DNA from: Rhodoferax sp.
GTDB taxonomy: Bacteria > Pseudomonadota > Gammaproteobacteria > Burkholderiales > Burkholderiaceae_C
Length of the DNA stretch: 64,000 nucleotides
Assembly: GCA_013791765.1 (NCBI GenBank)
Contig: VMTC01000082.1
Location: forward strand, 1 to 64,000
Direction of reading: 5' to 3'
In this document: in pieces, positions 4,297-59,697 of the stretch
Position numbering within the stretch: position 1 is the stretch's first letter
How the letters are laid out: each line of letters begins with the position of its first letter
Position numbers and translations under genes: made by a program
The notes under the pieces: model-generated
What the model was told of the DNA's origin: nothing
The model's database searches: none
The model's input: only the letters and a program-made list of their open reading frames with translations

Positions 4297-7245
4297 TCAG
4301 TGCGCCTGGTCCCAGTTCGGCCCGATGCCGACCTCGGCTAGAAGCGGCACCTTCAAGTGCGCCACCCCTGCCATCAGCCTGGGCACCTCGTGGCGCACCC
4401 AATCGATTTCTGACTCGGGCACCTCAAACACCAGTTCGTCGTGCACCTGCATGATCATTTTGGTGGCCAGCTTTTGCGCATCAATCACTTGCTGGACCTT
4501 CACCATGCTGAGCTTGATCAAGTCGGCAGCGGTGCCTTGCATCGGCGCGTTGATCGCGGCACGCTCGGCACCACTGCGGCGCGGGCCGTTGGGCGAGTTG
4601 ATCTCGGGCAGATACAGGCGTCGGCCAAACACGGTTTCCACATAACCCTGGCGTTTGGCAAGCGCGCGGGTGTGGTCCATGTAATTTTTGACGCCGGGGT
4701 AACGCTCAAAGTAGCGCTCGATGTAATTTTTGGCCGCGGTGTTGTCGATGCTCAAGGCTTTGGCCAGGCCGTAAGCGCTCATGCCGTAAATCAGGCCGAA
4801 GTTGATGACCTTGGCGTAACGGCGCTGCTCGCTCGTGACTTGGGCCCTGTCGGTACCAAAAATTTCGGCGGCGGTGGCGCGGTGCACATCCATGCCGTCG
4901 CGAAACGCCAGTAAGAGCGCTGCGTCGCCGCTGATGTGCGCCATGATGCGCAGTTCGATCTGGCTGTAATCGGCGCTGGCAATCACACAACCTCTAGGTG
5001 CCACAAAGGCCTCGCGCACGCGCCGCCCTTCGGGCGTGCGCACCGGAATGTTTTGCAGGTTGGGGTCGTTGCTGCTGAGGCGACCCGTCACCGCCACGGC
5101 CTGCGCGTAATGGGTGTGCACGCGCCCGGTGCGTGGGTGCGCCAGTTGCGCCAGCTTGTCGGTGTAGGTGCCCTTGAGTTTGGCCAGGCCCCGGTGCTCC
5201 AAAATTTTGGCCGGTAGCGGGTAGTCCTCGGCGAGTTTTTGCAGCACTTCGTCGTCGGTACTGGGCGAGCCGGTGGGGGTCTTTTTGACGATCGGCAGAC
5301 CGAGCTTGGTGAAGAAAATTTCGGCAATCTGCTTTGGGCTGCTCAGGTTAAAGGGTTGACCGGCCAGCTCGTGCGCCTCCTTTTCAAGTTGCAAAATGCG
5401 TGATCCCAGTTCGTGGCTCTGCAGCGCCAAGGTGGGCGCGTCAATCAGCACACCGTTGCGCTCGATGCGGTACAAGGCCTCGCTGCTGGCGATTTCCAGC
5501 TCATAAATCCCCAACAGGCTGGGCAGGTGGTAAGGCTCCGACAAACTGGCCGGATGGCCCGCGTCACCCTGCGCGTCGGCGGTGGCTGGCTGCAAGGCGG
5601 CGGCGCTGGCTTGTAAGAGCGGCCACAGCACGCGGTGCACCTCCAGCGTCATGTCGGAGTCTTCACAGGCGTATTGCGTTGCTTTCTCAATGTCCACCTG
5701 GTCAAAGCAGATTTGGTTGACCCCTTTGCCACACAAATCCTCAAAACTGATGCCGCTGCGCCCGAGGTGGCGCTCGGCCAGGCTGGCCAGGCCGTGCGGC
5801 TTGTGCACTTCGAGCACATAGCTTTGCAGCATGGTGTCGTGCGCGTAGCCCTGCACTTCAATGCCGTGGTTGGCAAACACATGGCGGTCGTATTTGACGT
5901 GCTGACCCAGCTTGGGTTTTGCCGGGTCTTCCAGCCAGGGTTTGAGCCTGGACAGCACCTCGTTCAGAGGCAATTGATTTGGTGCGTCGGGGTAGGCGTG
6001 CGCCAGCGGGAGGTAGGCCGCCTCGCCCGGCGTCACGCTGAAACTGATGCCGACTATTCTGGCGCGCATTTCGTCGAGCGAGGTGGTTTCGGTGTCGAGC
6101 GCCACCAGGTCAGCCGCCTGCACTTTGGCGAACCATTTGTCGAAAGCTTCCCAGGTCAGGATGGTGTCGTAGCGCAGGTCGACCGCCGTGGAACGCGTCG
6201 CTTCGCTGCGGACCTCGGGCTCGTCAAACAAGTCGGGCTCGCGTGCTGAGGCGTCGCCGGCCTTGGGACCCGTGGGCTTGGTATCGGCGCCAGCGCCGCC
6301 GCGCTGCGTGGCGCCGTTGCCTGATCCCAAGGTGCGGGCCAAGCCCTTGAATCCATATTTTTCATAAAATAGGGCCAGAGCCCCCGTATCCATTGCGCCT
6401 GTAGCTATTGAATCAAGAGCGGGCAAATCAGGCATCCAGCCATTCAGGTCGCAGTCGGTCTTGATGGTCAGCAGTTGGCGACCCAGCGGCAGCCAGTCCA
6501 GTGACTTCTTGAGGTTCTCGCCCACCACGCCTTTGATCTGGTCGGCGTTGGCCACCACGGCGTCGAGTGAACCGTATTGCTGCAGCCACTTGGCAGCGGT
6601 TTTGGGGCCCACCTTGGGCACGCCCGGCACGTTGTCAATGGCGTCACCCACCAGCGTCTGAAAATCCACCATCAGCTGTGGCGGCACGCCAAACTCGGCC
6701 TCGACGCCCGCCACGTCGCGGCGCCGGCCGTTCATGGTGTCGATGATGGTGATGTGCGAGTTGACCAGCTGCGCCAGATCCTTGTCGCCACTGCTCACTA
6801 TCACCTCGATACCCTGACGCGCCGCCGTCACCGCCAGCGTGCCGATCACGTCATCGGCTTCGACCCCAGGGACGGCCAGCACTTTCCAGCCCATCAGGCG
6901 CACCACGTCATGAATCGGGTCGATCTGGGCGCGCAAATCGTCGGGCATGGGCGAGCGGTGCGCCTTGTACTCGGGGTAGAGCGCATCCCTGAAGGTCGGG
7001 CCCTTGTCGTCAAAAATGCAGGCAGCGTAATCTGCCGGCACCTCTTTGCGCAGGCTTTGCAGCATGTTGATCATGCCGCGGATGGCACCGGTGGGCGCAC
7101 TCAAGGGGTCGCCGGGCACGGCGCGCAAGTCCGGCATGGCGTGAAAGGCGCGGTACAAGTAGCTCGAGCCGTCCACCAGCAGCAGGATTTTTGGCTTGCT
7201 TGGGCTGTCAGTCACAGCGTCAGTCAGAGAGTCATTCATATTCAT
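4297..7245 (-). CDS. polA: DNA polymerase I
   Basis: A 982-residue repair and Okazaki-processing polymerase, started at the ATG at 7243-7245 (MNMNDSLTD); the frame stays open upstream but loses similarity. An N-terminal 5'-nuclease domain (LLVDGSSYLYRAFHAMP, GVEADDVIGTLA, SSGDKDLAQLV) is followed by a 3'-5' exonuclease with its DxE intact (VALDTETTSLDEM). The C-terminal polymerase has motif A DYSQIELRIMAHISGD, an O-helix RRYAKVINFGLIYGMSAYGL and motif C VHDELVFEVP. It is longer than the usual ~930 residues. The extra length lies in the linker between the first two domains, where one dispersed repeat encodes about 14 residues (6371-6413) beside a Gly/Ala/Pro-rich segment. Confidence 0.97.
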   Translation of the reverse strand: MNMNDSLTDAVTDSPSKPKILLLVDGSSYLYRAFHAMPDLRAVPGDPLSAPTGAIRGMINMLQSLRKEVPADYAACIFDDKGPTFRDALYPEYKAHRSPMPDDLRAQIDPIHDVVRLMGWKVLAVPGVEADDVIGTLAVTAARQGIEVIVSSGDKDLAQLVNSHITIIDTMNGRRRDVAGVEAEFGVPPQLMVDFQTLVGDAIDNVPGVPKVGPKTAAKWLQQYGSLDAVVANADQIKGVVGENLKKSLDWLPLGRQLLTIKTDCDLNGWMPDLPALDSIATGAMDTGALALFYEKYGFKGLARTLGSGNGATQRGGAGADTKPTGPKAGDASAREPDLFDEPEVRSEATRSTAVDLRYDTILTWEAFDKWFAKVQAADLVALDTETTSLDEMRARIVGISFSVTPGEAAYLPLAHAYPDAPNQLPLNEVLSRLKPWLEDPAKPKLGQHVKYDRHVFANHGIEVQGYAHDTMLQSYVLEVHKPHGLASLAERHLGRSGISFEDLCGKGVNQICFDQVDIEKATQYACEDSDMTLEVHRVLWPLLQASAAALQPATADAQGDAGHPASLSEPYHLPSLLGIYELEIASSEALYRIERNGVLIDAPTLALQSHELGSRILQLEKEAHELAGQPFNLSSPKQIAEIFFTKLGLPIVKKTPTGSPSTDDEVLQKLAEDYPLPAKILEHRGLAKLKGTYTDKLAQLAHPRTGRVHTHYAQAVAVTGRLSSNDPNLQNIPVRTPEGRRVREAFVAPRGCVIASADYSQIELRIMAHISGDAALLLAFRDGMDVHRATAAEIFGTDRAQVTSEQRRYAKVINFGLIYGMSAYGLAKALSIDNTAAKNYIERYFERYPGVKNYMDHTRALAKRQGYVETVFGRRLYLPEINSPNGPRRSGAERAAINAPMQGTAADLIKLSMVKVQQVIDAQKLATKMIMQVHDELVFEVPESEIDWVRHEVPRLMAGVAHLKVPLLAEVGIGPNWDQAH
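6371..6413 (+). repeat. Dispersed repeat, copy 2 (inside polA, in frame)
   Basis: Orientation A on the plus strand (CCAGAGCCCCCGTATCCATT ... GTAGCTATTGAATC), antisense to polA. Read in the polA frame it encodes DSIATGAMDTGALAL. It sits in the linker between the 5'-nuclease and 3'-5' exonuclease domains, where an insertion would be tolerated. Confidence 0.8.
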
Positions 7246-7299
7246 GCGCGCATTTTGCCTGCGCGTGCTGCTCGGCTGTGCCCCCTCTACAATGCCTCG

Positions 7300-7596
7300 A
7301 TGAAAATCGCCCTGTTTCTTAGCCTCTCTTTGTCGTTCTACGGCCTCGCGCTGGCGCAATCTGCGGCGCCCGCGCCAAGCACCGCCACGCCGCCAGCCGC
7401 TGCAGCGTCGCGTGCGGCGGGTGCCATTGAACAACGCACCGAGCGCATTCAAATCGAAGACGCGGGCGCCCGCATTGATGAGCTGCGCGTGGGCGGCGAA
7501 ACCAAAACCATCACGGTGCAGCCCAAGGGGCGCCTGCCCGCCTACCAGGTTGAGCCCACCAGCGGCGAGCGCAGCTGGAAGATTCTGGGTTTCTGA
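7300..7596 (+). CDS. Secreted DUF2782 family protein
   Basis: A 98-residue protein started at the ATG at 7300; the same frame is open far upstream but is antisense to polA there. Residues 1-20 form a Sec signal peptide (MKIALFLSLSLSFYGLALAQ), followed by an Ala/Pro linker and a conserved small domain (IEDAGARIDELRVGGETKTI ... YQVEP). This matches the DUF2782 proteins between polA and thrB in Burkholderiales. Function is unknown. It is divergent from polA, with 54 bp between the starts, and three bases upstream of thrB. Confidence 0.75.
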   Translation: MKIALFLSLSLSFYGLALAQSAAPAPSTATPPAAAASRAAGAIEQRTERIQIEDAGARIDELRVGGETKTITVQPKGRLPAYQVEPTSGERSWKILGF

Positions 7597-7599
7597 TTC

Positions 7600-10157: not shown

Positions 10158-10199
10158 CAATAGCTACTCACGCAGTATTGACGCGGGCTACAGCCTTAA
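10158..10199 (-). repeat. Dispersed repeat, copy 3 (between convergent genes)
   Basis: Orientation A is on the minus strand (AAGGCTGTAGCCCGCGTCAA then TACTGCGTGAGTAGCTATTG). It lies between the convergent FecR-domain gene and rfbC. CCTTTAAGG next to it (10193-10201) could add a small stem. Confidence 0.8.
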
Positions 10200-10220
10200 A
10201 GGCTATAAATTAGTTGGAAT

Positions 10221-12413: not shown

Positions 12414-15400
12414 TCAACAAAACTCCCGACTCTGCGTCGTCAAGCCACCCAGCAGCGGCGTCAGGTCTTGCAGGTGGCCGGCAATCAGGTGGCACACAAT
12501 GCCGCCACTCTCGACGTCGCGCTGCCAGGTGCCATGGACCGCCAGCAGGCGCGAGCGTAAGAGTGCCGGGCGTTGCTTCTCTCGGATTGATTTCCAGACA
12601 ATGACATTGACCTGGCCGGTTTCGTCCTCCAAGGTGGCAAAGACCACGCCTTTGGCAGTCTGCGGCTGCTGGCGCATGGTGACCAGGCCACAGGCCGCTA
12701 CCCGCCGTCCGTTGGGCTGCTCAAGCAGTTGCTTTGCGGTCAGCATCCTCATTTTTGATAGCTGAGCGCGTAGCAGCGACAAGGGGTGCGACCTTAAAGT
12801 GAGCCCCAAGGCGGCGTAGTCGAAGATCACTTCTTCGCCCTCGCTGGCAGCGGGCAGTATCAAAGCGTCTTCGGCCACCGGCACGGCGCGCAGCAAGCCG
12901 GGCGCACTTTGCTGCGCCGCTGCGTCCCAGACCTGCTGGCGCCGGTGGCCCGACAGGCTCTTCAAAGCGTCGGCACTGGCCAGGGCTTTGAGGTCGCCGG
13001 CGTCAAGCGCAGAGCGCAGCGCCAGGTCTTCGGTGCTGGTGAAAGGCGCTTCAAGCCGCGCGGCCACGATGCGCTGGGCGGCGGCTTCGCACAGGCCGCT
13101 GACTTGGCGCAGGCCCAGGCGAACGGCGGACGAGTTGCAGGCGTCGGTTGTTTGAGTGGCACCGCTGCGGGGTGTCTTCGTGGCACCGCTATTGGGGTCT
13201 GAGCCCAAATCGGTGTTTGGCCTGGTGTTTTGCGGAGATTTCTGGCCCGAATTGGGATCCGACCCCAAAAGCTCCGTTGCTTCTTTGCCATTGCTGTTCC
13301 CAAAACCGGAATCTGGGCCCAAACGCTTGCTTGATTTCACTGACCCAATAGCTGGCTCCAGCGTGCAGTCCCAGTCGCTGTGGCTCACATCGACCGCGCG
13401 CACCTGAACGCCATGGCGCTGCGCGTCTTGCACCAGTTGCGATGGGCCGTAAAAGCCCAGCGGCTGGCTGTTGAGCATGGCGGCGAGAAAGCAAGCGGGT
13501 TCATGGCGCTTGAGCCAGCTGCTCACATAGACCAGCAGCGCAAAGCTGGCGGCGTGACTCTCGGGGAAGCCGTATTCGCCAAAGCCTTCGATCTGGCTGA
13601 AGATGTGCTCGGCAAACTCGGGGGTGTAGCCGTTTTTGAGCATGCCGCCAACCAGCCGGTCATAGAACTTGTGGACGCCGCCCTGGCGCTTCCAGGCGGC
13701 CATGGAGCGGCGCAGGCTGTCGGCCTCGCCGGCTGAAAAATCTGCCGCCGCCATGGCGATCTGCATCACCTGCTCCTGAAAAATCGGCACGCCCAGCGTG
13801 CGCTTCAAGACTTCCTTGAGCGCCGGGCTGGCGTACTGCACCTGCTCGGGGTGCGCGCGCGCCTGCAGGTACGGGTGCACCATGCCGCCTTGAATCGGCC
13901 CGGGGCGCACGATCGCGACCTCGACCACCAGGTCGTAAAAGCAACGCGGCTTGAGGCGCGGCAGCATGCTCATCTGCGCACGGCTCTCGATCTGGAACAC
14001 GCCCACGGTGTCGGCCTGGCAGATCATCTCAAAAGTGGCGGGGTCTTGCGCCGGGATGTCCTGCATTAAAAACGGCGCGCCGCGCTGCCCGCTGATGAGG
14101 TCCAGGCAGCGGCGGATGGCGCTGAGCATGCCCAGCGCCAGCACGTCCACCTTGAGCAAGCCCATGGCGTCCAGATCGTCCTTGTCCCACTGGATGATGG
14201 AGCGCTCCGGCATGGCGGCGTTTTCCACCGGCACCAGGCGCGTGAGCTTGCCGCGGGTCAGCACAAAACCGCCCGGATGCTGGCTCAGGTGGCGCGGGAA
14301 ACGCTGCAACTGGGTGCTCAGGTCGAGCCACAGCTGTAGCTGCTGTGGCGCTGGTGGCGCAAAGTCCGACCCCATGTTCGCGCCCAGTGATGCCAGTGCC
14401 GATTGCAGCCGCTCAACCAGCACCTCTCGGCTGTACATGCCGGGGTGCTCTTTGGCCAGTGACGTGATCAAAGCCTCAGGGATACTCAAGGCACGACCCA
14501 CATCGCGCAGCGCGCTGCGTGGCCGGTAGCTGATGACCACGGCGGTCAAGGCAGCGCGTTCGCGCCCGTACTTGGCGTAGATGTACTGAATGACTTCTTC
14601 ACGCCGCTGGTGCTCGAAGTCAACGTCAATATCGGGCGGCTCGTCGCGCTCTCTGGAGATGAAGCGCTCGAACAGCATGTTCATGCGCGCCGGATCAACC
14701 TCGGTCACGCCCAGGCAGTAGCACACCGCCGAGTTGGCGGCCGAACCGCGGCCCTGGCACAGGATATGGCGGCTGCGCGCAAAGCGCACGATGTCGTGCA
14801 CGGTCAAAAAATACATCTCAAACTTCAGTTCCTCGATCAGCGCCAGTTCGTGCGCCAGCTGCTGTTGCACCGCCTTGGGTGTGCCCTGCGGGTAGCGATC
14901 GTGTGCGCCCTCGGCCGTATAGCGGCGCAGCGTTTGCGCCGCTGACAAGCCCGGTAGCACCGTTTCCAGCGGGTACTGGTAGCGCAACTCGTCCAGGCTG
15001 AAGCTGCAGCGCGCCGCCACCCGCAGCGTGTTGGCGAGCAGTTCGGGCGGATAAATGGCGGCCAGGCGCTGGCGCGAGCGCAGGTGCGCTTCGGCATTGG
15101 GCTGCAGCGCAAAACCGCACTCGAACACCGGCTGACCCAGGCGCACGGCCCTGAGCACGTCCTGCAGCGGCTTGCGCGAGCGCACATGCATGTGCACGTT
15201 GCCCCCAGCCACCAGCGCCACGCCAGTCAACTGGCTTAGTTGCTGGAGACGGTGCAATTGCAGCGCGTCGTCAGGCCTCAACAGCGACTCGGTCAGCAAC
15301 CAAACATTTATGCCAAATAGAGCTCTAGCCCACGTCGTTATTGCGTGAGCAGCTTCGAAATAAAGAGCATACGGCAGCGCCAGCAAGACCTCGCAACCAC

Positions 15401-15806
15401 TCAGCAGACTCCAGGGCGCGTCTGGCCAGGCCAAACGGTACTGGCCTTTGGGAGCGGCCCGGCGCGCCTGGGTGATGAATTCGCACAGGTCGCCCCAGGC
15501 TTGCAGGTCGTGCGGCAGCGCCACCAGCCGAAAGCCGCTAGCGCGTGCGGCGCCCTCAACGCCAGCAGCCCCAGAGTCCCGAGTCACGGCAAACTCGGCG
15601 CCGGGCAGCAATTTCAAGCCGAGTTTTTTGGCCTCGGTGTGCGCACGCACCACGCCCGCCACCGAGCACTCGTCAGTGAGGGCCAGCGCCGCGTAGCCCA
15701 GCGCGGCGGCCCGCGCCACCAGTTCTTCCGGGTGCGAGGCACCGCGCCCAAAGCTGAAGTTGGACAGGCAATGCAACTCGGCGTAGGCGGGCAAATTTGA
15801 CGGCAT
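12414..15806 (-). CDS. dnaE2: Error-prone DNA polymerase III alpha subunit DnaE2
   Basis: A 1130-residue C-family polymerase of the SOS mutasome, working with ImuA and ImuB in translesion synthesis. The PHP domain starts YAELHCLSNFSFGRGASHPEE (split: YAELHCLSNF, then SFGRGASHPEE). The catalytic Asp motif is PDIDVDFEHQRREEVI, and the C-terminal OB fold carries GLVTMRQQPQTAKGVVF. A LexA box lies 30-45 bases upstream of the start. It is about 60-100 residues longer than typical DnaE2. Two insertions explain this: a dispersed repeat in the PHP-palm region (15316-15362) and a low-complexity segment with two GSDPNSG blocks (13150-13360). Both keep the frame. Confidence 0.95.
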   Translation of the reverse strand: MPSNLPAYAELHCLSNFSFGRGASHPEELVARAAALGYAALALTDECSVAGVVRAHTEAKKLGLKLLPGAEFAVTRDSGAAGVEGAARASGFRLVALPHDLQAWGDLCEFITQARRAAPKGQYRLAWPDAPWSLLSGCEVLLALPYALYFEAAHAITTWARALFGINVWLLTESLLRPDDALQLHRLQQLSQLTGVALVAGGNVHMHVRSRKPLQDVLRAVRLGQPVFECGFALQPNAEAHLRSRQRLAAIYPPELLANTLRVAARCSFSLDELRYQYPLETVLPGLSAAQTLRRYTAEGAHDRYPQGTPKAVQQQLAHELALIEELKFEMYFLTVHDIVRFARSRHILCQGRGSAANSAVCYCLGVTEVDPARMNMLFERFISRERDEPPDIDVDFEHQRREEVIQYIYAKYGRERAALTAVVISYRPRSALRDVGRALSIPEALITSLAKEHPGMYSREVLVERLQSALASLGANMGSDFAPPAPQQLQLWLDLSTQLQRFPRHLSQHPGGFVLTRGKLTRLVPVENAAMPERSIIQWDKDDLDAMGLLKVDVLALGMLSAIRRCLDLISGQRGAPFLMQDIPAQDPATFEMICQADTVGVFQIESRAQMSMLPRLKPRCFYDLVVEVAIVRPGPIQGGMVHPYLQARAHPEQVQYASPALKEVLKRTLGVPIFQEQVMQIAMAAADFSAGEADSLRRSMAAWKRQGGVHKFYDRLVGGMLKNGYTPEFAEHIFSQIEGFGEYGFPESHAASFALLVYVSSWLKRHEPACFLAAMLNSQPLGFYGPSQLVQDAQRHGVQVRAVDVSHSDWDCTLEPAIGSVKSSKRLGPDSGFGNSNGKEATELLGSDPNSGQKSPQNTRPNTDLGSDPNSGATKTPRSGATQTTDACNSSAVRLGLRQVSGLCEAAAQRIVAARLEAPFTSTEDLALRSALDAGDLKALASADALKSLSGHRRQQVWDAAAQQSAPGLLRAVPVAEDALILPAASEGEEVIFDYAALGLTLRSHPLSLLRAQLSKMRMLTAKQLLEQPNGRRVAACGLVTMRQQPQTAKGVVFATLEDETGQVNVIVWKSIREKQRPALLRSRLLAVHGTWQRDVESGGIVCHLIAGHLQDLTPLLGGLTTQSREFC
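13150..13360. repeat. Palindromic-repeat insertion inside dnaE2
   Basis: About 70 codons of low-complexity sequence contain repeated near-palindromes built on TTGGG-x-TC-x-GA-x-CCCAA: ATTGGGGTCTGAGCCCAAAT (13191-13210), AATTGGGATCCGACCCCAAA (13250-13269) and a weaker copy near 13305-13323. A short GTGGCACCGCT is also duplicated. In the dnaE2 frame this gives Ser/Gly/Asn/Pro-rich peptide with LGSDPNSG twice, in the linker before the C-terminal helix-hairpin-helix/OB region. Confidence 0.7.
15316..15362 (+). repeat. Dispersed repeat, copy 4 (inside dnaE2, in frame)
   Basis: Orientation A (GAGCTCTAGCCCACGTCGTT then ATTGCGTGAGCAGCTTCGAA), antisense to dnaE2. In the dnaE2 frame it encodes FEAAHAITTWARALFG. 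The core ITTWARAL recurs as IETWARAL from the copy in imuB, so both genes read the element in the same frame. Confidence 0.8.
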
Positions 15807-18601: not shown

Positions 18602-19987
18602 TCAGGCAAACAGGCCATGTAAATACCAGTGTGCATCGGCATCAACGCCCTGCCCCGCTTCTGACGAAGCGCCTGACGCCGCGCCCGCCGCTGCGCGTCC
18701 CTGCCCGCTCAGGCGCTCGCGGTAAATCCAGAGCAAGCCCAGGCGCTCGCTGCGGGCCAGAAAATAGTCGCGCAAGGCGCAGTCTCCGACCTCCCACCAG
18801 CCAGCCTCCAGGCGCTGCGGTCCGGCCAGCAGCATCAGGGGTCCCTGGTGCTGGGGCCGCTGCTGGTGCAGCGCGAGTGGACGCGCCGTGGCCAGCAGCC
18901 AGCTTGGATAAAGCACCGAATTATTTTTATCTTTTAGGGCTCTAGCCCACGTTTCTATTGGGTTAAAAGCTATCAATTGTGAAGCATTTACCGCAGGTTG
19001 CCAGCGCTGCATTTTTTCGGGCCGATGATCAAAACAAGGCTGCATCTGCAACACCTGCTGCGCACCCAGGCGGGCACTGAGCCGCTCCAGCAACTGCTGC
19101 AGACCGTCGCCCGGGCGGCGTGCATCGGGCAGCAAACTGGCCGTTTCACCTGTCAGTTTTTGCGTCTCCAGCGTACGCAGGCACAAGCTATGCACCGGCG
19201 CGGGCAAGGTGACTTGTGCCAGCTGTTCGCCCGCCAGGCGCAGCAAATGGGAGGTGTCGCCGCTCGGCTCAAAACTGCGCAGCAGCAGTTGGCCCTGGGG
19301 CGCGGTGTTGCGCCGCGCATCCATGTGCCAGACCAACTCCACCGCCAGCACGCCACGCTGGCGCAGTTGCAGCCAGCGTTGCAACTGCGCCAGCAAGCGG
19401 CGCGCGCCAAATAGCAGCGCCGGCGCGGTTTCAACATGAAAGCCGAGCTCCAGCGTGGCCTCAAACACCTCGGGCAGCGCCAGCCAGGGGTAAACGTCGC
19501 TCGCCACGCCATAAGCCTGGTCCAGCGCTGCCAGCAGGGGTGCGCCAAAGCGCCGTGCCACGCCGCCCCGCGGCAGCGCGCGCAGCTGGCCCCAGTGGCT
19601 GCAGCCCAGCCGCTCCAAGGTGGCCAGATGCGGCCGCGCCGCCACCAGCGTGTGCAGCGGCAGATCGTCGGGCAGTGTGCGCGCCAGGGCGGGGGCCTGG
19701 AGCCGCGCATAAGCTACTAAAGACGTAGCGCCTTGCGCATAATGGACGGGAGCTAGAGGCTTATTTGATGTATAAATTTGGCGTAAGAGTGCGCGCTTGC
19801 CTCCCCACAGGCGCTCGCTGGCCGACAACTCCAGCAACAAGGCATCTTGGAGCCGCGCGACCTTGGGCGTGTACTGCAGCGCCCACTCGGCCAAGGCGAG
19901 CAGCGCATCGGGCACCTCACCGGCCACGCTGGCGGCGGCGCTGCTCCAGACGGCATCAGGCCGGGGTTGCAAGGCAATCCAGTGCAT
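18602..19987 (-). CDS. imuB: ImuB, inactive Y-family polymerase of the SOS mutasome
   Basis: A 461-residue DinB/UmuC-like protein. The start is the ATG at 19985-19987 (MHWIALQPRPDAV) because a strong AAAGGAG lies just upstream; a longer frame begins inside imuA. ImuB bridges DnaE2 to the beta clamp. The Y-family palm is recognisable (VARLQDALLLELSASERLWGG) but I see no catalytic acidic triad, as expected for ImuB. It overlaps imuA by 32 bases. Two dispersed repeats are inserted in frame (18932-18980 and 19710-19763), one in the palm/finger region and one in the C-terminal third. Confidence 0.9.
   Translation of the reverse strand: MHWIALQPRPDAVWSSAAASVAGEVPDALLALAEWALQYTPKVARLQDALLLELSASERLWGGKRALLRQIYTSNKPLAPVHYAQGATSLVAYARLQAPALARTLPDDLPLHTLVAARPHLATLERLGCSHWGQLRALPRGGVARRFGAPLLAALDQAYGVASDVYPWLALPEVFEATLELGFHVETAPALLFGARRLLAQLQRWLQLRQRGVLAVELVWHMDARRNTAPQGQLLLRSFEPSGDTSHLLRLAGEQLAQVTLPAPVHSLCLRTLETQKLTGETASLLPDARRPGDGLQQLLERLSARLGAQQVLQMQPCFDHRPEKMQRWQPAVNASQLIAFNPIETWARALKDKNNSVLYPSWLLATARPLALHQQRPQHQGPLMLLAGPQRLEAGWWEVGDCALRDYFLARSERLGLLWIYRERLSGQGRAAAGAASGASSEAGQGVDADAHWYLHGLFA
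18932..18980 (+). repeat. Dispersed repeat, copy 5 (inside imuB, in frame)
   Basis: Orientation A (GGGCTCTAGCCCACGTTTCT then ATTGGGTTAAAAGCTATCAA). In the imuB frame it encodes QLIAFNPIETWARALKDK, aligning residue by residue with the peptide from the dnaE2 copy (IxTWARAL). Confidence 0.85.
19710..19763 (-). repeat. Dispersed repeat, copy 6 (inside imuB, in frame)
   Basis: Here orientation A runs with the gene (AAGCCTCTAGCTCCCGTCCA ... TTTAGTAGCTTAT). It encodes NKPLAPVHYAQGATSLVAY. It carries a few extra bases relative to the 45-bp form but stays in frame. Confidence 0.7.
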
Positions 19988-20801
19988 GAGCGCTCTCCTT
20001 TCTGGCACCGAGTGGCTGAGCAGGCTTTGCACGCGTCGTTTGAGCATCAATCGCAGCCCGTCCGGCCTGCGGGCACACACCCCGCAAAGCCAGCAACACC
20101 GCCAGGCTGGCAGGGCGGGCCGGGAGCGCCAGGGTGCGCGCCAGCGGCGCGCCGCGGCGTTTGAGAATCTGCACGTGCAAGGCGTCGCTCGTTACATCGC
20201 CCTGCGCCAACGCAGTCTGCGCAGCGGCGCGCCCTGCGTCCAGCGCCGCTTTGAGGGGCCGGGCAGCGCCCAGCAGCAGGCGCAGCACGGCAGGCGAGGA
20301 CTCGCTTTGCGCCCCAGATTGGCGCAGCACAAACAGCAGCTTGCTGTGGGCCTGGGCAGCAAACTGCAAACGCCGCAATTGCTCAGAGCGCACCTGCGGT
20401 AACCAGGCCAGCACGGCACCCACCTCGGCGCAGCGCAGCGCCTGCTCAGTGGCCCACAGCCGCTGCGCCGCAGTCACCGCGCCGACCCACAGCAAGCGCC
20501 GGGCATCCAGGCCTTGCGCCGCCAGCCCGGGGCCAAAGGGCTCATGCGGCGGGCCCACCAGCACCAGCGGGCCGGGGCTGCGCGCCAAGGCTGGCAGCAA
20601 CAGGCGCCACTCCTGGCAGACACCGGGCGGCTGCAGGATTTCACAGAGAGCGCCAACCGGCCAACCGCCGCCAGGCAACTCGGCGTCGAGCGCGCCGTGG
20701 CCGCTGGCAAGCGTGGCCCCGCAGGCGCCAGCCAGCGCATCGGCGCGCCAGACGGCGGCGCCAAAGTCAAGAGAGGCAACAGGCAGGGAATGCGGCGACA
20801 T
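19956..20801 (-). CDS. imuA: ImuA, RecA/SulA-like SOS mutasome protein
   Basis: A 281-residue RecA-fold protein started at the ATG at 20799-20801 (MSPHSLPVASLDFGAAVWRA). Typical ImuA features are LDAELPGGGWPVGALCEIL, LVLVGPPHEPFGPGLAAQGL, the ATEQALRCAEVGAVLAWLP block and the basic PARPASLAVL tail. It precedes and overlaps imuB, and a LexA box lies about 30-45 bases upstream. ImuA, ImuB and DnaE2 together give damage-induced mutagenesis. The Walker A is not canonical, as is usual for this family. Confidence 0.88.
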   Translation of the reverse strand: MSPHSLPVASLDFGAAVWRADALAGACGATLASGHGALDAELPGGGWPVGALCEILQPPGVCQEWRLLLPALARSPGPLVLVGPPHEPFGPGLAAQGLDARRLLWVGAVTAAQRLWATEQALRCAEVGAVLAWLPQVRSEQLRRLQFAAQAHSKLLFVLRQSGAQSESSPAVLRLLLGAARPLKAALDAGRAAAQTALAQGDVTSDALHVQILKRRGAPLARTLALPARPASLAVLLALRGVCPQAGRAAIDAQTTRAKPAQPLGARKESAHALDCLATPA

Positions 20802-26603: not shown

Positions 26604-26642
26604 GGCATCACAGGCCCTGCGGCACCATGAAATTTAGGCAAT

Positions 26643-26697
26643 TAAATGGCCTGTATCCCTCGTCTCCCTTGGTTTCAAAGCTATGCATTAGATAGCT
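26643..26697 (+). repeat. Dispersed repeat, copy 7 (degenerate, intergenic)
   Basis: Orientation A, diverged: GGCCTGTATCCCTCGTCTCC, then CTTGGTTTCAAAGCTATG, then a second GATAGCTA. It ends at the stop codon of ispH. Left and right anchors are recognisable but the centre is not conserved. Confidence 0.5.
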
Positions 26698-35795: not shown

Positions 35796-36206
35796 TTAGC
35801 CATCCTGGTTGCGCATAAAGTCTGCGGTCTTGAAGAAGGCCTCGCGCAGTTGGCTGCGCAACGCGTCGGACACGGCGACCCCACCCATCGCCTGGTCCAT
35901 GCAGGCCAGCCACTGGTCTCGCTCGCGCAGACCAATCTTGAACGGCAGATGGCGGCCCCGCAGGCGCGGGTGGCCAAAGCGCTGCACATAATGCTGCGGC
36001 CCACCGAGCCAGCCACACAAAAACCAGAACAGCTTTTGCCGCGCATCGTCGAGCACGCTGCCATGCACGGCACGCAGTTCAGCGTAAGCCGGCTCCAGGT
36101 CCATCAGGTCATAGAAACGCGCCACCAGGGCCTGCACCTGGGGCTCACCGCCGATCTGATCGAACGGCGTACCAGCAACAGGTTCTTTCTCGATATTCAT
36201 AGTCAA
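35796..36206 (-). CDS. Group II truncated haemoglobin
   Basis: A 136-residue (or 134 from the second Met) trHbO-type globin. Visible are PFDQIGGEPQVQALVARFYD, LFWFLCGWLGGPQHYVQRFG and HPRLRGRHLPFKIG, with the proximal His in the latter and GWLGGPQHY characteristic of the group. It binds oxygen or nitric oxide in the cytoplasm. It is convergent with smr, with 13 bases between the stops. Confidence 0.93.
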   Translation of the reverse strand: MTMNIEKEPVAGTPFDQIGGEPQVQALVARFYDLMDLEPAYAELRAVHGSVLDDARQKLFWFLCGWLGGPQHYVQRFGHPRLRGRHLPFKIGLRERDQWLACMDQAMGGVAVSDALRSQLREAFFKTADFMRNQDG

Positions 36207-36250
36207 ATTGGCCTATAGCCCACGTATCCATTGAATAAGTAGCTATCAAC
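36205..36250 (+). repeat. Dispersed repeat, copy 8
   Basis: Orientation A: GGCCTATAGCCCACGTATCC then ATTGAATAAGTAGCTATCAA. One of the best-preserved copies. It begins at the 5' end of the haemoglobin gene, so it lies in that gene's leader. Confidence 0.88.
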
Positions 36251-36431
36251 AACATAGCATTATTGCAAAATACCTCACGCCACCTGGCGCGTGCCCCGAC
36301 ACTCGGTCTGAGCGTAACGGCTGCATCCTCAAAGCGGCCTTCTCGGCGGAGGTAGTCATTGATGAGAAGTTGACTCATGCTGTCCCTGATGTTGTGGGGC
36401 AATTCTAGGGGGGCCTCAATATCTAGAGGAA

Positions 36432-36487
36432 ATTCGGCTCTAGTCCTCGTCGATAGTGCGCAAAAAGCTATATGTTTGATAGCAAAT
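36432..36487 (+). repeat. Dispersed repeat, copy 9
   Basis: Orientation A with extra bases: GGCTCTAGTCCTCGTCGATA, then GTGCGCAAAAAGCTATATG and TTGATAGCAAA. Bases 36251-36431 between copies 8 and 9 hold no credible gene. Confidence 0.7.
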
Positions 36488-37439: not shown

Positions 37440-37489
37440 CAATCAGCCTCTAGCCCCCGTACCTATTGCTTCAGTAGCTATCAAATTTA
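37440..37489 (+). repeat. Dispersed repeat, copy 10
   Basis: Orientation A: CAGCCTCTAGCCCCCGTACC, then TATTGCTTCAGTAGCTATCA. A well-preserved copy that ends at the stop codon of the permease gene. With copies 8 and 9 it brackets the toxin-antitoxin pair. Confidence 0.88.
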
Positions 37490-52442: not shown

Positions 52443-52632
52443 GCCCGAGCTACATGCAGCCATTTGGCTGCATCGTTGCCCAAAAAATCCGGTCGCAACC
52501 CGCATTGCGGCCCATGGCGCCATCAAATGCAAGCCAGGGTTCGGACTGCGCAGGGAAATTGCAGCCGACTAAAACCAAAGCCTGCCTGCGTGGCGTTTCT
52601 TGAACAATGGACACAGGGCAGCAATTTACAGG

Positions 52633-52678
52633 GCTAGGCGATTCGCCAACGCCACACGCTGCGCTCGGTCACACGCAG
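52633..52678 (-). CRISPR. Degenerate terminal repeat half and fossil spacer
   Basis: GCTAGGCGATTC (52633-52644) matches 9 of 12 bases of the repeat end GCCGGGCGATCC. The 34 bases after it (52645-52678) have spacer length and match the array spacer at 53357-53391 at 31 of 34 positions. It is the leader-distal end of the array, where repeats usually decay. The stretch 52443-52632 has no other feature. Confidence 0.65.
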
Positions 52679-53500
52679 GTTTCAATCCGCGCCCGGCATT
52701 AAAGCCGGGCGATCCCTGTAATCATCGCTTCGCCCACCCACCAAAGACGTTTCAATCCGCGCCCGGCATTAAAGCCGGGCGATCCCTCCTTGGCCTTGCC
52801 TGGCCATATCCCACGCTGGTTTCAATCCGCGCCCGGCATTAAAGCCGGGCGATCCTGGCAGATAGGTAGTCCTGGCCGTCGCGTGGCGTAGTTTCAATCC
52901 GCGCCCGGCATTAAAGCCGGGCGATCCCAATCGCAGCCGGTGAGCGCCAAATGCGCGCGCGCGTTTCAATCCGCGCTCGGCATTAAAGCCGGGCGATCCG
53001 TCTCTAGACATCGGCTACCGTGTTATCCAACATGTTTCAATCCGCGCCCGGCATTAAAGCCGGGCGATCCCCCCGGTGGCGCCTACATGGATGGCGCCTA
53101 CATACGTTTCAATCCGCGCCCGGCATTAAAGCCGGGCGATCCGACAGCAGGCGCGCGGCTGGTCACGCATGGGGGTGTTTCAATCCGCGCCCGGCATTAA
53201 AGCCGGGCGATCCGCGCAGTTCGACGTTTGCCGCGTTGCCGGTGTCCAGTTTCAATCCGCGCCCGGCATTAAAGCCGGGCGATCCCTATCGTGCTGGTCG
53301 CTGTGCTATGGATGCGCAAGTTTCAATCCGCGCCCGGCATTAAAGCCGGGCGATCCAGCCAGCGCCACACGCTGCGCTCGGTGACATGCAGGTTTCAATC
53401 CGCGCCCGGCATTAAAGCCGGGCGATCCCTTTAGCCCTCGCACGGTCTAACAAGTGCGCTATTGTTTCAATCCGCGCCCGGCATTAAAGCCGGGCGATCC
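52679..53500 (-). CRISPR. Type I-C CRISPR array: 12 repeats, 11 spacers
   Basis: The 37-bp repeats start at 52679, 52749, 52819, 52891, 52963, 53034, 53106, 53177, 53249, 53320, 53392 and 53464. On the plus strand each begins GTTTCAATCC and ends GCCGGGCGATCC; only the repeat at 52963 differs (one base, CGCTCGG). Spacers are 33-35 bp. Read on the minus strand the repeat ends with the ATTGAAAC handle typical of type I-C, and a perfect stem (CGCCCGGC/GCCGGGCG) lies inside. The array therefore runs in the same direction as cas1-cas2, with its leader at the high-coordinate side. Small open frames across it are artefacts. Confidence 0.98.
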
Positions 53501-53724
53501 GCTTCACATCCAAGATGTTGATATTCAAAACAATTTCGACGTGTTGGCGCGAACGCCGTTGCTCAGCGGCATTCGCTTGCAAATTTTTCATCAAGAAAGT
53601 AAAAAATATCATCTATATCAATGAGTTGGGAAGCGCGCGAACCTTAAGGTGAAAAGGCTGTCACTTCAGGTTCGCGGCAATGACCTTACCACAGCGTCCA
53701 TGCCAGAGCCGTCCAAATTAGCAA
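53501..53724 (-). promoter_or_regulatory. CRISPR leader
   Basis: AT-rich sequence of about 220 bp between cas2 and the first (newest) repeat, with A/T runs around 53580-53625. No gene is seen. Position and composition fit the leader that carries the array promoter and integration signals. Confidence 0.75.
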
Positions 53725-54018: not shown

Positions 54019-54024
54019 AACTCC

Positions 54025-55053: not shown

Positions 55054-55074
55054 GGTTTGGCGGGCGAATGGTGC

Positions 55075-55103: not shown

Positions 55104-55109
55104 TCGTCT

Positions 55110-55520: not shown

Positions 55521-55801
55521 TTCCAGTCTCCTTTGTCATATTCGCTGTGGGTTAAAACTGCCTTGACCCACACCAGCCCGGCCTGAAAGGCAATGGCGGC
55601 CACCAGCCGGTACTTGTTGCCGCCAATATTGAACACATACCGCTCCCCCACTTTGTCCACGCTGGCAAACGTGGCCTTCAACTGGGCAAAGTGCGCAAAA
55701 TGGCATTGCTCCATCAACCTCCTGAAGTCCTGCAGTGGCGTGTCTGCATCCGGATGGAGAGCAGCAAATTCACGCAGCGCTTTGTTGGAGATCAGTTTCA
55801 T
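55517..55801 (-). CDS. higB: HigB-type mRNA interferase toxin
   Basis: A 94-residue RelE-superfamily toxin, from the ATG at 55799-55801 (MKLISNKALREFAALHPDAD); a GTG nine bases upstream is an alternative. Typical HigB features are FNIGGNKYRLVAAIAFQAGL and the C-terminal VLTHSEYDKGDWK. It cuts mRNA on the ribosome when HigA is lost. It is the first gene of the inserted cassette between cas4 and cas1. Confidence 0.88.
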   Translation of the reverse strand: MKLISNKALREFAALHPDADTPLQDFRRLMEQCHFAHFAQLKATFASVDKVGERYVFNIGGNKYRLVAAIAFQAGLVWVKAVLTHSEYDKGDWK

Positions 55802-55879
55802 TCTTGGCACTCATCTTATAGCAATTTGCTATATTTTGTCGATCTATCGTCGTCGCAGACTTGGCTGGCGTGCGGATAA

Positions 55880-55908
55880 GGCTATGCGTCTGGGTCAAAC
55901 AGGGCGGC
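55880..55908 (-). repeat. Right direct repeat flanking higBA (cas4 3' end)
   Basis: Partner of 55075-55103. Here it is the genuine end of cas4 (ALFDPDA then TAG at 55882-55884). The unit between the repeats, with one repeat copy, is about 805 bp. Confidence 0.85.
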
Positions 55909-56520
55909 GCGGGCAGAAACCAAGTCGGCATGGGTGGCTTGCGGCTGGCAGCGATCTTGCAGGGAGCACGCCTTGCAGCGCCTGGCCGCTTGCTCGCCGC
56001 TCAGGGGCGGTGGCAGCGTGCCGCTGGCCAGCATCTGGCGGATGGCCTGCGCGGTTTGCACCACGTCAGCGCGCAACTGCTCGGTGATGGGCACGACCCG
56101 GCGGCGCTTGGAGGTGGCATAAAAAAGCGCGCCCTCGTTGACGGGCTTGCCGGTCATGGCCTGCAAACACATGGCTTGCGCAGCCAGTTGAAGGTCATCA
56201 CACGCGGCAATGTCTGCCGCCTTGTTGCGGCTGCCGTGTTTGTATTCCACCGGATAGGGCACGCCGCCGGCCAAAAACTCCACCACGTCGGATTTGCCAA
56301 TCAGCCCCAGCGCGTCATGCCACAGCGGCAAGGCACGTTCCACGCGCACGCCTTTGGCTGTCTCGACACCGGGCTGATCTGCCTTGGCATGCACCGCTTG
56401 GCCGCGCAGGGTGTGCACGTTGTCGTCAAACACCTGCTCCAGGTGGATCAGACCGCACTGACACGGTCAGTACTGCCAGTGCTGCAGGGCGGACAGTGCG
56501 ATGGGTTCTACCGGTTCCAT
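55882..56520 (-). pseudogene. cas4: cas4 with TGA at the first Fe-S cysteine codon
   Basis: Cas4 trims prespacers and selects PAMs. Reading from ATG 56520 gives MEPVEPIALSALQHWQY, then TGA (56467-56469), then PCQCGLIHLEQVFDDN and on in frame to the stop. Type I-C Cas4 normally has QYCPRQCGLIHLEQ there, so TGA replaces the Cys that binds the cluster (TGC to TGA), and the next Arg is Cys (CGT to TGT). The remainder is intact: nuclease motifs GKSDVVEF, PVEYKHG and LQLAAQAMCL, and the three C-terminal cysteines RRCKACSLQDRCQP. A GTG at 56433 with GGAG just upstream could restart a 183-residue protein lacking the first ligand. Confidence 0.85.
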
Positions 56521-56546
56521 GAGTGTTTTATGCCACTAGACCCCGT

Positions 56547-57389
56547 CTAATCTAGGTTACCAGCTATCTTTTTTGCTGTTTTTGACAGAAAATTTTCGCC
56601 CGTTACCACCGATTTGCCCGTTTGGTTCTCCAATTGCTGACGCGCTTGCCGGGCAATACGCCCACCAGCTTTCGCAGCGGTCTTATTTTCTGCCATGCCG
56701 GTGGCATCGACCTTTTCGGCAATTTGCCGGGTGGATAACTCAGCCAGCGCCGTGAAAATGAGTTCAGCCTCGCTCATGTGATCACGCAGGTTGTGGCTTG
56801 TGAGCCCCTTCGCTTCCTTGTGCTGGACCACGCTTACGCCGGCCCATTCCTGGTGAATGATGTTGGTCAGAATCGCAAACTCACTGCCCTTCTTGATGTC
56901 GTGCTCGCTCCAGTAATCGGTGAGTTTGTTGCGGGTTTCTTGCCCGGTCATGCGCTGCTGTATCCACTTGTCGCTGCGGCCATGCTGCTGCCAGGTCTGG
57001 CGGGCACGATTCAATGACAAGGCAGGGTCGGCCAGCTCTTGCATGCGCTCATAGCCTACCTTGGCCAGCCAAAGCTTGATGGGCTCGGCTTTGGGGCTGG
57101 GGACGGACTGCACCAGGCGCAGCAGGGTTTCGGCTGTGGCGACGTCGGTAAGCCGCTGCTTTCCATCGGCTGCTGGCATTTTCAACTGGTGACAAGTTGT
57201 CACCAGTTGACTGCCTTCGTTGGCGAGCCGTCGTTTGAGTTGATTCCAGTACTTGCGAGCAGTGAGGTCATCCGGCTGTTGTGTGAGTACCTGTACCACG
57301 TCAATCACGGAAAACCACCAGGTTTCCGTGTCTTCGTCATACACGCGGCGGATGGACTGACCGTCGAATTCGGTGGGCAGGATTTTCAT
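56547..57389 (-). CDS. DinD-like Bro-N domain protein
   Basis: A 280-residue protein. The N-terminal Bro-N type domain (DEDTETWWFSVIDVVQVLTQ, ARKYWNQLKRRLANEGSQLV) is followed by LRLVQSVPSPKAEPIKLWLA and YERMQELADPALSLNRARQT, a pattern I know from DinD-like damage-inducible proteins. The C-terminal half has HNLRDHMSEAELIFTALAEL. No LexA box was found upstream by eye. It occupies the place where cas7 would precede cas4 in an intact type I-C operon. Its role here is unknown; Bro-N proteins often come from phages. Confidence 0.7.
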   Translation of the reverse strand: MKILPTEFDGQSIRRVYDEDTETWWFSVIDVVQVLTQQPDDLTARKYWNQLKRRLANEGSQLVTTCHQLKMPAADGKQRLTDVATAETLLRLVQSVPSPKAEPIKLWLAKVGYERMQELADPALSLNRARQTWQQHGRSDKWIQQRMTGQETRNKLTDYWSEHDIKKGSEFAILTNIIHQEWAGVSVVQHKEAKGLTSHNLRDHMSEAELIFTALAELSTRQIAEKVDATGMAENKTAAKAGGRIARQARQQLENQTGKSVVTGENFLSKTAKKIAGNLD

Positions 57390-57594
57390 AGACGACTCCC
57401 TTTATCTTTTCGATTTGGGTACAGCTTACCCTTGCAAAGGCGCAGCAGCGGACCCTCAGGCTCCGTGGACCCAAAAATACTTCAGCCGCGCTTTCTGGTC
57501 ATCCGGGCCAACCCAGCGCAAGCGGCCCTCAGCCGGCGCAACAGACAGCATCGCCCCGACTAAAATCTCCAGCTGTCCTTGAAAGCCCTGCCCC

Positions 57595-59697
57595 ATGCCA
57601 CGCCAACTCTTCGTTACCACCGCCCTGCCCTACGCCAACGGCAATTTCCACATCGGCCACATCATGGAATACATCCAGGCCGATATCTGGGTGCGCTATC
57701 AGCGCATGATGGGCAACGCGGTGCACTTTGTCTGCGCCGACGACTGCCACGGCGCGCCAATCATGATCGCCGCTGAAAAAGCAGGCAAGACGCCGCAACA
57801 ATTTGTGGCCGATATCGCGGCTGGCCGCAAGCCCTATCTGGATGGTTTTCACATTGGTTTTGACAACTGGCATTCCACCGATGGCGTGGAGAACCACGAG
57901 CTGGCGCAGGCGATCTACATCGCCCTCAAAGCCAATGGTTTGATCAGCACGCGCGTCATCGCCCAGTTCTTTGATACCGAGAAGAACATGTTTTTGCCCG
58001 ACCGCTTTATCAAAGGCGAATGCCCCAAGTGCGGTGCCAAAGACCAGTACGGCGACAACTGCGAAGAATGCGGCGCGGTCTACAGTCCGACCGAGCTGAA
58101 GAATCCTTATTCCGCCCTGAGCGGCGTCACGCCAGTGCTGCGCGACTCGGAACATTACTTTTTCAAGCTGTCAGACCCGCGCTGTGTGGCGTTTCTTGAA
58201 AAGTGGACGCAAGGCAGCAACGCACAGGGCCAGGCGCACCTGCAGGGCGAGGTCTACAACAAGATCAAGGAGTGGCTGCTGCCCAATGAAGAAGGCAAGC
58301 GCGACCTGGGCGACTGGGACATCTCCCGAGACGCGCCCTACTTCGGCATCGAGATTCCCGATGCGCCGGGCAAGTATTTTTACGTCTGGCTCGATGCGCC
58401 CATCGGCTACCTGGCGTCGCTGAAAAACCGCTTCATCAAGCTGGCGGGAGATAGCGCGCTGGGCGCACAGAACTACGACGCCTTCATGGCCGACCCAGCC
58501 ACCGAGCAGTACCACTTCATCGGCAAAGACATCATCACATTTCACACGCTGTTCTGGCCCGCCATGCTGCATTTCAGCGGCCGCAAGACGCCCAATGCGA
58601 TTTTTGTGCACGGCTTTTTGACCGTCAACAGCGAGAAGATGAGCAAGAGCCGTGGCACCGGCCTGGACCCGCTCAAGTACCTGAGCCTGGGCATGAACCC
58701 GGAGTGGCTGCGCTACTACCTGGCGACCAAACTCAACGCGCGCAATGAAGACCTGGAGTTCAGCCCGGAGGATTTCATGGCGCGCGTTAACAGCGACCTG
58801 GTCGGCAAATACATCAACATCGCGTCACGCGCGGCCGGCTTTCTGGCCAAGCGCTTTGGCGGCCAGCTCGGCGCTATCTCCAGCGATGGCGCTGCGTTGC
58901 TGACGCAGATGCAGATCGAACGCACCAGCATCGAACAACTTTATGAGGCGCGCGAATTTGCCAAGGCGCTGCGCGAGACCATGCTGCTGGCCGACCGCGT
59001 GAATGAATATGTGGATGCCAACAAGCCCTGGGAACTGGCGAAACAGCCCGACATGGAAGCCCGCTTGCACGATGTGTGCACGGTGTGCATGGAGGCCTTT
59101 CGCGCACTCACGGCTTACCTCAAGCCGGTGCTGCCGCAACTGGCGACGCAAGTGGAGGCGTTCCTGAAGATCGAGCCTTTGAGTTTTGCCAGCGTCAGCC
59201 AGCCCTTGGGCGCCGGCCACGTCATTGGCAACTACCAGCACTTGATGCAGCGTGTCGATATCAAGCAACTTGAAGCATTGTTTGAGCCTGCAGCCCACGT
59301 AGAACCTGAGCATGCAGCTATTGAATCAGTAGTGCCAGGTGGCGAAGCCATCGCCCCGGTGATTGGCATCGAAGACTTCAGCAAGATCGACCTGCGCATT
59401 GCCCGCATCGTCAACTGTGAGCCGGTGGCGGGCTCCACCAAGCTGTTGCGGCTGACACTGGACGTGGGCGAAGCGAGCACGCGCAACGTGTTCTCCGGCA
59501 TTGCCAGCAGCTACCAGCCCGAGCAACTGGTGGGCAAACTCACGGTGATGGTGGCGAATCTGGCGCCGCGCAAGATGAAGTTTGGCATCAGCGAGGGCAT
59601 GGTGCTGGCCGCCAGCCATGCCGATGAAAAGTCGAATCCTGGCATCTATGTTCTCGAGCCCTTTGCTGGCGCCTTGCCCGGCATGCGGGTGCATTGA
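57595..59697 (+). CDS. metG: Methionyl-tRNA synthetase
   Basis: A 700-residue class I synthetase charging tRNA-Met. The HIGH motif is in [20 protein letters not shown], the zinc knuckle is [18 protein letters not shown] and the KMSKS loop is [14 protein letters not shown]-terminal tRNA-binding domain for dimerisation ([18 protein letters not shown]) starts near residue 595. The linker before it contains a dispersed repeat in frame (59283-59328). Its usual divergent neighbour apbC is displaced by the CRISPR island. Confidence 0.97.
59283..59328 (+). repeat. Dispersed repeat, copy 11 (inside metG, in frame)
   Basis: Orientation A runs with the gene (GAGCCTGCAGCCCACGTAGA then CATGCAGCTATTGAATCA). 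It encodes [15 protein letters not shown] in the linker between the catalytic body and the C-terminal tRNA-binding domain. The frame relative to the element is the same as in imuB copy 6, which also has orientation A. Confidence 0.75.

Follow-up and report, generated by a model that had tools for sequence, protein, structure and literature searches.

A long dispersed DNA motif in Rhodoferax and related genera, apparently rewritten in place within genes and possibly an uptake-sequence-like signal

The repeat in the window and in its genome

The window analyzed here is the whole 64-kb stretch at positions 1 to 64,000 of contig VMTC01000082.1 of a Rhodoferax sp. (assembly GCA_013791765.1); it carries polA, dnaE2, imuB and metG, together with a repeat that recurs both within these genes and between genes (Table 1). 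The source of the window is called the window genome, comparison genomes bear labels of the form G0xx or G1xx, a lineage version of the repeat is called a dialect, and the repeat is read throughout in the orientation that runs from ATAGCT to ATTTG. An earlier reading of the window from its letters alone (the sequence-only reading) had reported five in-frame copies in essential or repair genes, falling into two orientation groups. All five copies are present, and the peptides quoted for them (among these GAMDTGALAL, AITTWARALF and PIETWARALK) were found in the translations; in motif orientation, the copies in polA, dnaE2 and imuB (18924) are sense to their genes and those in imuB (19726) and metG are antisense. 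A model built from six intergenic copies of the window detected all five genic copies, with E-values from 4.2e-10 to 1.7e-6. Among the host genes, dnaE2 and imuB are not essential. No NCBIfam family was found for imuB at E 1e-20, and we take the gene to be imuB from its position near dnaE2 and from features associated with ImuB.

Table 1. Motif copies and their host genes in the window
Feature	Coordinates	Strand	Remarks
Motif in polA	6359..6408	-	Sense to gene, phase 0, encodes SIATGAMDTGALALFYEKYGF; no gap in block against outgroups, 2-8 additional residues immediately upstream
Motif in dnaE2	15306..15354	-	Sense, phase 0, encodes EAAHAITTWARALFGIN; length-neutral
Motif in imuB C-terminal linker	18924..18973	-	Sense, phase 0, encodes IAFNPIETWARALKDKN; variable-length linker
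Motif in imuB palm region	19726..19774	+	Antisense, phase 1, encodes YTSNKPLAPVHYAQGATSLVA; homologous to conserved outgroup residues
Motif in metG linker	59283..59321	-	Antisense, phase 1; variable-length linker
Motif outside main genes	2547..2597	-	Overlaps end of a weakly scored open reading frame call
Intergenic motif	10160..10210	+	
Intergenic motif	26629..26689	-	
Intergenic motif	36192..36248	-	
Intergenic motif	36417..36476	-	
Intergenic motif	37440..37486	-	Abuts stop codon of gene 37487-40006
Partial motif	56529..56567	-	Covers 3' end of gene
Intergenic motif	60009..60059	-	28.1 bits (L092:3915-3965)
polA open frame	4297..7833	-	Named by NCBIfam; orthologue match starts near its residue 205
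dnaE2 (error-prone DNA polymerase)	12414..15806	-	Named by NCBIfam
imuB (Y-family-like protein near dnaE2)	18602..20080	-	Name presumed from context
metG	57595..59697	+	Named by NCBIfam

The consensus of the motif is GCTATnAAATTn-ATAGCTGCTtACGCAttaTccACGaGGGCTAGAGcCcgATTTGaTATAAAT, about 51-66 bp in length, with a 51-bp core that holds 45 bits in an alignment of 54 intergenic copies. Conservation per position in the same copies is very uneven (0.0 to 1.8 bits): the blocks ATAGCT, GC(A), ACG, GGGCTA, AG.C, ATTT and TAAA are conserved, with free positions between them, and the variable positions are near random among copies. No base-pair covariation was found among the motif copies of the window genome, which leaves a palindromic structure unsupported by compensatory change; such uneven conservation without covariation suggests a recognized DNA sequence, not an RNA structure. 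The repeat is best explained as a long motif recognized in DNA rather than as a peptide-coding insert.

Copies scoring at least 15 bits were counted in 864 kb of the 4.17-Mb window genome, a sample made up of the window and 40 stretches of 20 kb each, in which contigs were picked by length and not at random. This sample held 113 copies, or about 550 per genome by extrapolation. With the threshold lowered to 10 bits, 122 matches were obtained as against none in a reversed decoy, excluding chance, and a sequence-only model from ten window copies gave at least 150 matches in the window genome; in an Rfam scan of families the gathering score was reached by CRISPR repeats alone. With genes called by a purpose-made caller (coding fraction 0.897), 57 of the 113 copies are intergenic, 42 lie within genes and 14 overlap gene ends, 12 of these at 3' ends, so that the density is 0.64 per kb of non-coding and 0.054 per kb of coding sequence. 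Intergenic copies reach 1.22 per kb in convergent gaps and 0.24 per kb in divergent ones, a rarity that argues against promoters, and no regular spacing of copies was seen (standard deviation/mean 0.94).

Reading frames and ancestry of the genic copies

Of the six possible frames, two hold 34 of the 42 genic copies of the window genome, one frame for each orientation (22 of 24 antisense and 12 of 18 sense copies). A second sample, biased to good copies because it was fetched by a strong motif-core pattern, gave 26 of 30 in the same two frames (antisense 11/13, sense 15/17), bringing the total to 60 of 72; the preferred open frame in each orientation, proposed by the sequence-only reading, therefore holds beyond the window. 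Stop codons account for part of this choice and not for the whole of it. As a sole cause they were rejected: in the 57 intergenic copies the core is open in antisense phase 1 in 23 cases and in phase 2 in 25, whereas genic copies use these phases 22 times and never, respectively. Over a longer span (-12 to +54) the open copies number 20/57 and 10/57, and in the second sample a genic use of 11 versus 1 stands beside an openness of 24/60 and 11/60. The frame preference exceeds stop avoidance, and selection for coding compatibility, another proposal of that reading, is supported.

The same reading held that the blocks had been inserted and may have spread as peptide inserts, in the manner of Rickettsia palindromic elements, and had named homologous residues in element-free orthologues as the observation that would speak against this. 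Such residues were found for polA, dnaE2 and the imuB palm. The DnaE2 and ImuB-palm blocks align to motif-free outgroups with no gap or one, with homologous residues inside; 28 same-genus PolA sequences are of equal length across the block, motif-rich or not, and in 11 PolA proteins from other families the block is ungapped, a gap of 2-8 residues lying just before it, which is less than the roughly 17 residues that a motif would encode. Nine newly fetched polA pieces gave no motif match above 4.5 bits. Insertion thus fails at least for dnaE2 and imuB-19726 and, on balance, for polA, while the alignments remain ambiguous for the copies in metG and the ImuB C-terminal region, which sit in linkers whose length varies among species.

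The peptide of each block was matched to outgroup proteins, which came from G066, G119, G134 and G138 where the gene lies outside the window and from other-family genomes for window genes; among those four outgroups a match of at least 9 bits with three models occurred in G066 alone (11.4 bits, one locus). G062, considered as a motif-free control, was rejected for having a dialect of its own (see below). Usable motif-free outgroups were available for 19 of the 42 genic copies, of which gap filtering kept 12. For 10 of these 12, no other motif peptide of the same frame class fits the outgroups as well as the copy's own, so that the block residues carry gene-specific ancestry; as the alternative peptides overlap, the combined p is approximate. 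Insertion with clean boundaries was found unsupported for dnaE2, imuB-19726, the polA block, GcvP, LpxB, PrmB, MurI, LigA and HscA, and likewise for the others of the 12 low-gap cases. Taken together, testable genic copies mostly represent existing coding sequence that was overwritten and not inserts that were pasted in. Exceptions may be the XseA and lipoyl-linker copies and, to some extent, those in DapE and a TrmH-like gene, where the window-genome protein is longer than its outgroups.

Maintenance in the genus and dialects across genera

In a count over 34 same-genus genomes, which left out the same-genus genome G008, 14 carry at least 13 matches to the window-genome version at E 1e-5 and 20 carry 0 to 4. 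Poor here means poor in the window-genome dialect; other versions were looked for in 100 kb of G030 and at the gene loci of the poor species. The 100 kb of motif-poor G030 contained no ATAGCTN5CGC, as against 41 in 864 kb of the window genome, and no model match above 10 bits, and so no version known to us is present in that stretch. In a polA+metG tree built without the block, motif-rich and motif-poor species are interspersed; the tree was made by a quick method and misplaced the outgroup G042, so the number of losses can be given only as "several".

The motif is maintained at the DNA level, as seen in synonymous positions of three sense copies (motif positions of at least 0.5 bits; separate position totals used those of at least 0.8 bits). 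In polA, third codon bases match the motif in 134 of 178 cases in the 14 rich species, with 37 expected from the codon usage of the same gene, and in 67 of 172 (expected 37.5) in 14 poor species. The corresponding figures for rich versus poor species are 46/69 (expected 16) versus 55/136 (37) in dnaE2 and 40/52 (13) versus 43/100 (23) in the imuB C-terminal copy, each with about six rich species, after six genomes with a divergent dnaE2/imuB version had been dropped (G005, G010, G032, G003, G021 and G012). In the block's Ile codon the third base is A in 13 of the 14 rich species and in 3 of the 14 poor ones. When synonymous conservation of the whole block was compared among rich species with that of other windows in the same gene, none was as high in metG (0/653) or in the imuB C-terminal set (0/414).

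A search of a genome collection with the exact core pattern matched at least 118 stretches; most of the 80 loci listed are from Rhodoferax, the others from Polaromonas, Curvibacter, further Comamonadaceae, and betaproteobacterial and other bins. Within the family, 24 of 80 genomes (one per genus, the window genome included) match the window-genome version at E 1e-3, which is a minimum, given that other genera have versions of their own. Two such dialects of the same geometry were built from other genera of the family, ATAGCTGCCAGCGCagGttgaaCaaGCGCTGGAGGCCgA in G082 (51 matches of at least 15 bits in 398 kb) and ATAGCTGCTGGCGCTTGcTGGgCAAGCGCTAGcGGC in G062 (28 in 800 kb), where the window-genome model found a single match at that threshold in 800 kb. 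The G082 core is dyad-symmetric and shows no covariation.

Orthologous sites were then compared. For G082, 22 genic copies had a match, 21 spanned the site, and four were dropped as probable paralogues (below 50% identity), leaving 17. At eight of these (CobC-like, PrmB, CobU-like, TrmH-like, UvrD, DapE, CobS-like and LpxB) the G082 motif starts at the same nucleotide. Gene names are best NCBIfam matches, several of them below the curated cut-off, and the CobS-like and TrmH-like names are our assumption from sequence and context. At all eight sites each genome's copy scores higher with its own dialect model, the models having been rebuilt without these sites. At eight diagnostic positions, window-genome and G082 letters occur 42 and 17 times in the window-genome sites and 15 and 40 times in the G082 sites (p 5e-6); position 27 is G in 7 of 8 window-genome sites and C in 8 of 8 G082 sites. 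For G062, 25 copies had a match, 24 spanned the site and 20 were kept, and four of the 20 sites reach at least 14 bits under the G082 or G062 model and less than 5 under the window-genome one. Letters at shared sites thus follow the genome, which is not what passive decay of an old insertion would give, and suggests that something rewrites the sites in concert.

Several further copies deserve mention. Those of the same-genus genome G013 (L042/L076) score up to 29-30 bits with both the window-genome and G082 models and may represent an intermediate dialect. One G062 copy (L285:5454-5487) is so palindromic that both strands match, and would fold into a long stem with T after it, resembling a terminator. 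On contig C100 of the window genome (L181-L182), the motif occurs in each of five genes around a cobalamin cluster, those for CobC-like, CbiB, CobU-like, substrate-binding and CobS-like proteins, and a DUF1156 anti-phage-associated protein of the window genome (L166:8378-11263) has it at about 88% of its length.

Candidate causes and rival explanations

The motif occurs in place at several genes, its dialects are genome-specific and in register at shared sites, and rich and poor species are interspersed; that it is kept up in place by a factor acting in trans is, in our judgment, very probable. Under the mechanism that we propose, hundreds of chromosomal sites, intergenic and genic, would be held near a lineage-specific version of the motif by a trans-acting factor that recognizes it. 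Genic sites would mostly have formed by rewriting of coding sequence wherever the peptide allowed, so that ancestral residues were kept and the two favored frames were used. A change in recognition would move the shared sites in concert and give rise to dialects, and its loss would let the sites decay to ordinary codons. The driving force might be a bias in DNA uptake together with recombination, as with the DNA uptake sequences (DUS) of Neisseria and the uptake signal sequences (USS) of Pasteurellaceae, a cause that we advance tentatively, by analogy. As a whole, a trans-recognized motif rewritten in place, most likely as an uptake-sequence-like signal, is the best explanation available to us, and we hold it with moderate confidence.

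Several features that mark DUS and USS are found here: hundreds of over-represented copies, formation in place with conservation at orthologous sites, and lineage dialects. The DUS of Neisseriaceae is 10-12 bp long with a CTG core and is read by the known receptor ComP; according to the parts of the sources consulted, it too has very many core-genome copies, genes included, a conserved motif, lineage-specific dialects that share an invariant core, and frame limits within genes (PMC3630211; PMC2397512). The USS of Pasteurellaceae, which spans about 29 bp including a core of 9-10 bp, is experimentally tied to uptake and, in the sections consulted, shares with our motif a core with AT-rich flanks, one preferred orientation in genes and a proposed evolution in place within pre-existing sequence (PMC2346458; PMC1939737). 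The motif described here differs in being 51-66 bp long, in being unrelated to the USS in sequence, and in being known from sequence alone, whereas a reader is known for the DUS and uptake evidence exists for the USS. If this reading is right, we know of no longer signal of this kind. It would then belong to a third, independently evolved system of uptake specificity, or of equivalent self-recognition, in Comamonadaceae, with genus-level dialects, repeated wholesale loss, and core genes, replication and repair genes included, rewritten in place and in concert; this we regard as plausible and still open to substantial doubt.

A number of observations weigh against this reading. Competence genes are common and do not track the motif: of 28 genomes, both rich and poor, 27 have ComEC, the exception being motif-rich G023 (89% complete), and ComP_DUS-family pilins are present in 30 of 33, again both rich and poor, the exceptions being motif-rich G031, G025 and G013, of which G013 scored 100% complete. 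The motif is far longer than DUS or USS. Nine of the 17 orthologous sites are without a motif in G082. Synonymous conservation of the whole block is moderate in polA (39/1018 windows as high) and not raised in dnaE2 (182/1024) or the imuB palm (390/410), although the sets for the last two still contained the divergent dnaE2/imuB version. In the peptide-fit test the imuB palm ranked 4th of 33 and UvrD 9th of 27. Immediately before its block PolA has 2-8 additional residues, and net gains of about 11-23 residues in XseA, as well as gains in the E2/E3 lipoyl linkers, suggest that some copies may have been inserted; the comparison that gave these gains took G062 as motif-free. The enrichment of replication and repair genes is suggestive only: of the 40 motif genes 39 were scanned, and eight belong to this group, namely polA, dnaE2, imuB, uvrD, xseA, topB, dnaG and ligA, but three of the eight come from the window that prompted the question, and outside it the count is 5/35 versus 3/60 length-weighted controls. 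Scanning used E 1e-60 for the controls and 1e-20 for the motif genes; the stricter cut-off is passed as well by the five repair genes from outside the window. As a separate observation, the comEC gene of G062 (C1:1836740-1837544) matches in three pieces, seemingly in different frames, and may be broken.

The dyad symmetry of the G082 core, without structural covariation, makes a dimeric DNA-binding protein a serious rival: the motif could be the binding site of a chromosome-organizing, nucleoid or regulatory protein, with hundreds of sites under selection and co-evolving with the protein. Dialects that follow the genome at shared sites, and copies in genes and gaps alike, would fit this; we nevertheless consider it unlikely, since 45 bits far exceed the usual length of a binding site, the copies lack regular spacing, and the function would need to be dispensable in the 20 motif-poor genomes. 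Our search for a candidate protein covered three families. An ancient mobile element whose copies settle at similar sequences by replacement or ectopic conversion, and afterwards keep each other alike, would yield length-neutral genic copies and concerted change, could explain the net gains in XseA and the lipoyl linkers, and finds a parallel in the argument, in the part of Treangen 2008 consulted, that new DUS come from recombination and not from point mutation (PMC2397512). Against it, the near-random variable positions indicate that copies are not homogenized as wholes, many sites are common to several species and some to several genera rather than moving, and single-strand transposases (Y1_Tnp) do not track the motif, so that we judge this explanation improbable. 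A link to repetitive extragenic palindromic (REP) sequences and their RAYT transposases was rejected on the last ground: 26 of 28 genomes have Y1_Tnp, whether they are rich or poor in the motif.

The remaining alternatives fare worse than these. Dispersed transcription terminators or other RNA signals would agree with the enrichment between convergent genes and near stop codons and with the palindromic cores of the G082 and G062 dialects, but neither the window-genome nor the G082 dialect shows covariation and 42 of the 113 copies lie within genes, in both orientations, which makes them very improbable. Peptide insertion of the kind known from Rickettsia palindromic elements, to which the two preferred frames and the net gains in a few linkers could be credited, is more improbable still and was largely unsupported: motif-free orthologues have homologous residues, base-pair covariation is missing, synonymous positions are conserved, and orthologous sites carry dialects. 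In the part of the review consulted, those elements are described as insertions of about 150 bp; they likewise are repeats read in frame inside unrelated genes, whereas most testable sites here point to rewriting (PMC10969869). Chance resemblance of coding sequence to the motif might explain the weakest genic matches (16.5 bits in ligA and in hscA, 20.3 in manC), all of them in conserved stretches of protein; ligA and hscA are without a motif in both G082 and G062, and manC is without one in G062. As a general account it is barely credible, given the strong third-base match and the lone match of the window-genome model in G062, although the GC content of G062 is 68% against 60%.

Fragments of the motif are already in print, without a function. 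In the parts consulted of a study of spaced word pairs in 569 genomes, by Tong, Schliekelman and Mrazek 2017 (PMC5217627), such pairs are reported without function, Rhodoferax ferrireducens T118 had the most significant ones (140), and the Polaromonas naphthalenivorans pair ATAGCT(N)22CAAAAG had 125 copies, 18 of them in genes and 34 between convergent genes. By our own reading of these data, the spacing of the Polaromonas pair equals positions 1-6 and 29-34 of the motif, and the Acidovorax ebreus pair GCTTAT(N)5AAGCG fits positions 13-28; the full motif and the analysis of orthologues and dialects, as given here, do not appear in those parts (PMC5217627). Our searches of the open-licence literature turned up no function for the motif, nor any description of it at full length, of genic copies formed in place, of its loss, or of dialects changing at orthologous sites. 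If the uptake-like reading holds, a large environmental family would join Neisseriaceae and Pasteurellaceae in having genome-wide self-recognition motifs, the several losses within one genus and the dialect change between genera would amount to a natural experiment on a DNA-level force that constrains protein evolution, and the motif would be long enough for biochemical identification of its reader. It would also stand as a warning that a repeat read in frame within a protein is not necessarily an insertion.

Finally, some minor features of the window were noted. Part of it is 77% identical to DNA of R. ferrireducens OTU1. A CRISPR array lies at 52645-53506, with 12 repeats in the repeat table and 11 Rfam CRISPR-DR9 (RF01322) matches; within it, 84-nt stretches at 52645 and 53358 are 92% identical, so that a spacer region has seemingly been duplicated. 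Beside the array, a 55-nt stretch (52586-52640) is 84% identical to metG at 58182-58236 and looks like a decayed metG fragment.

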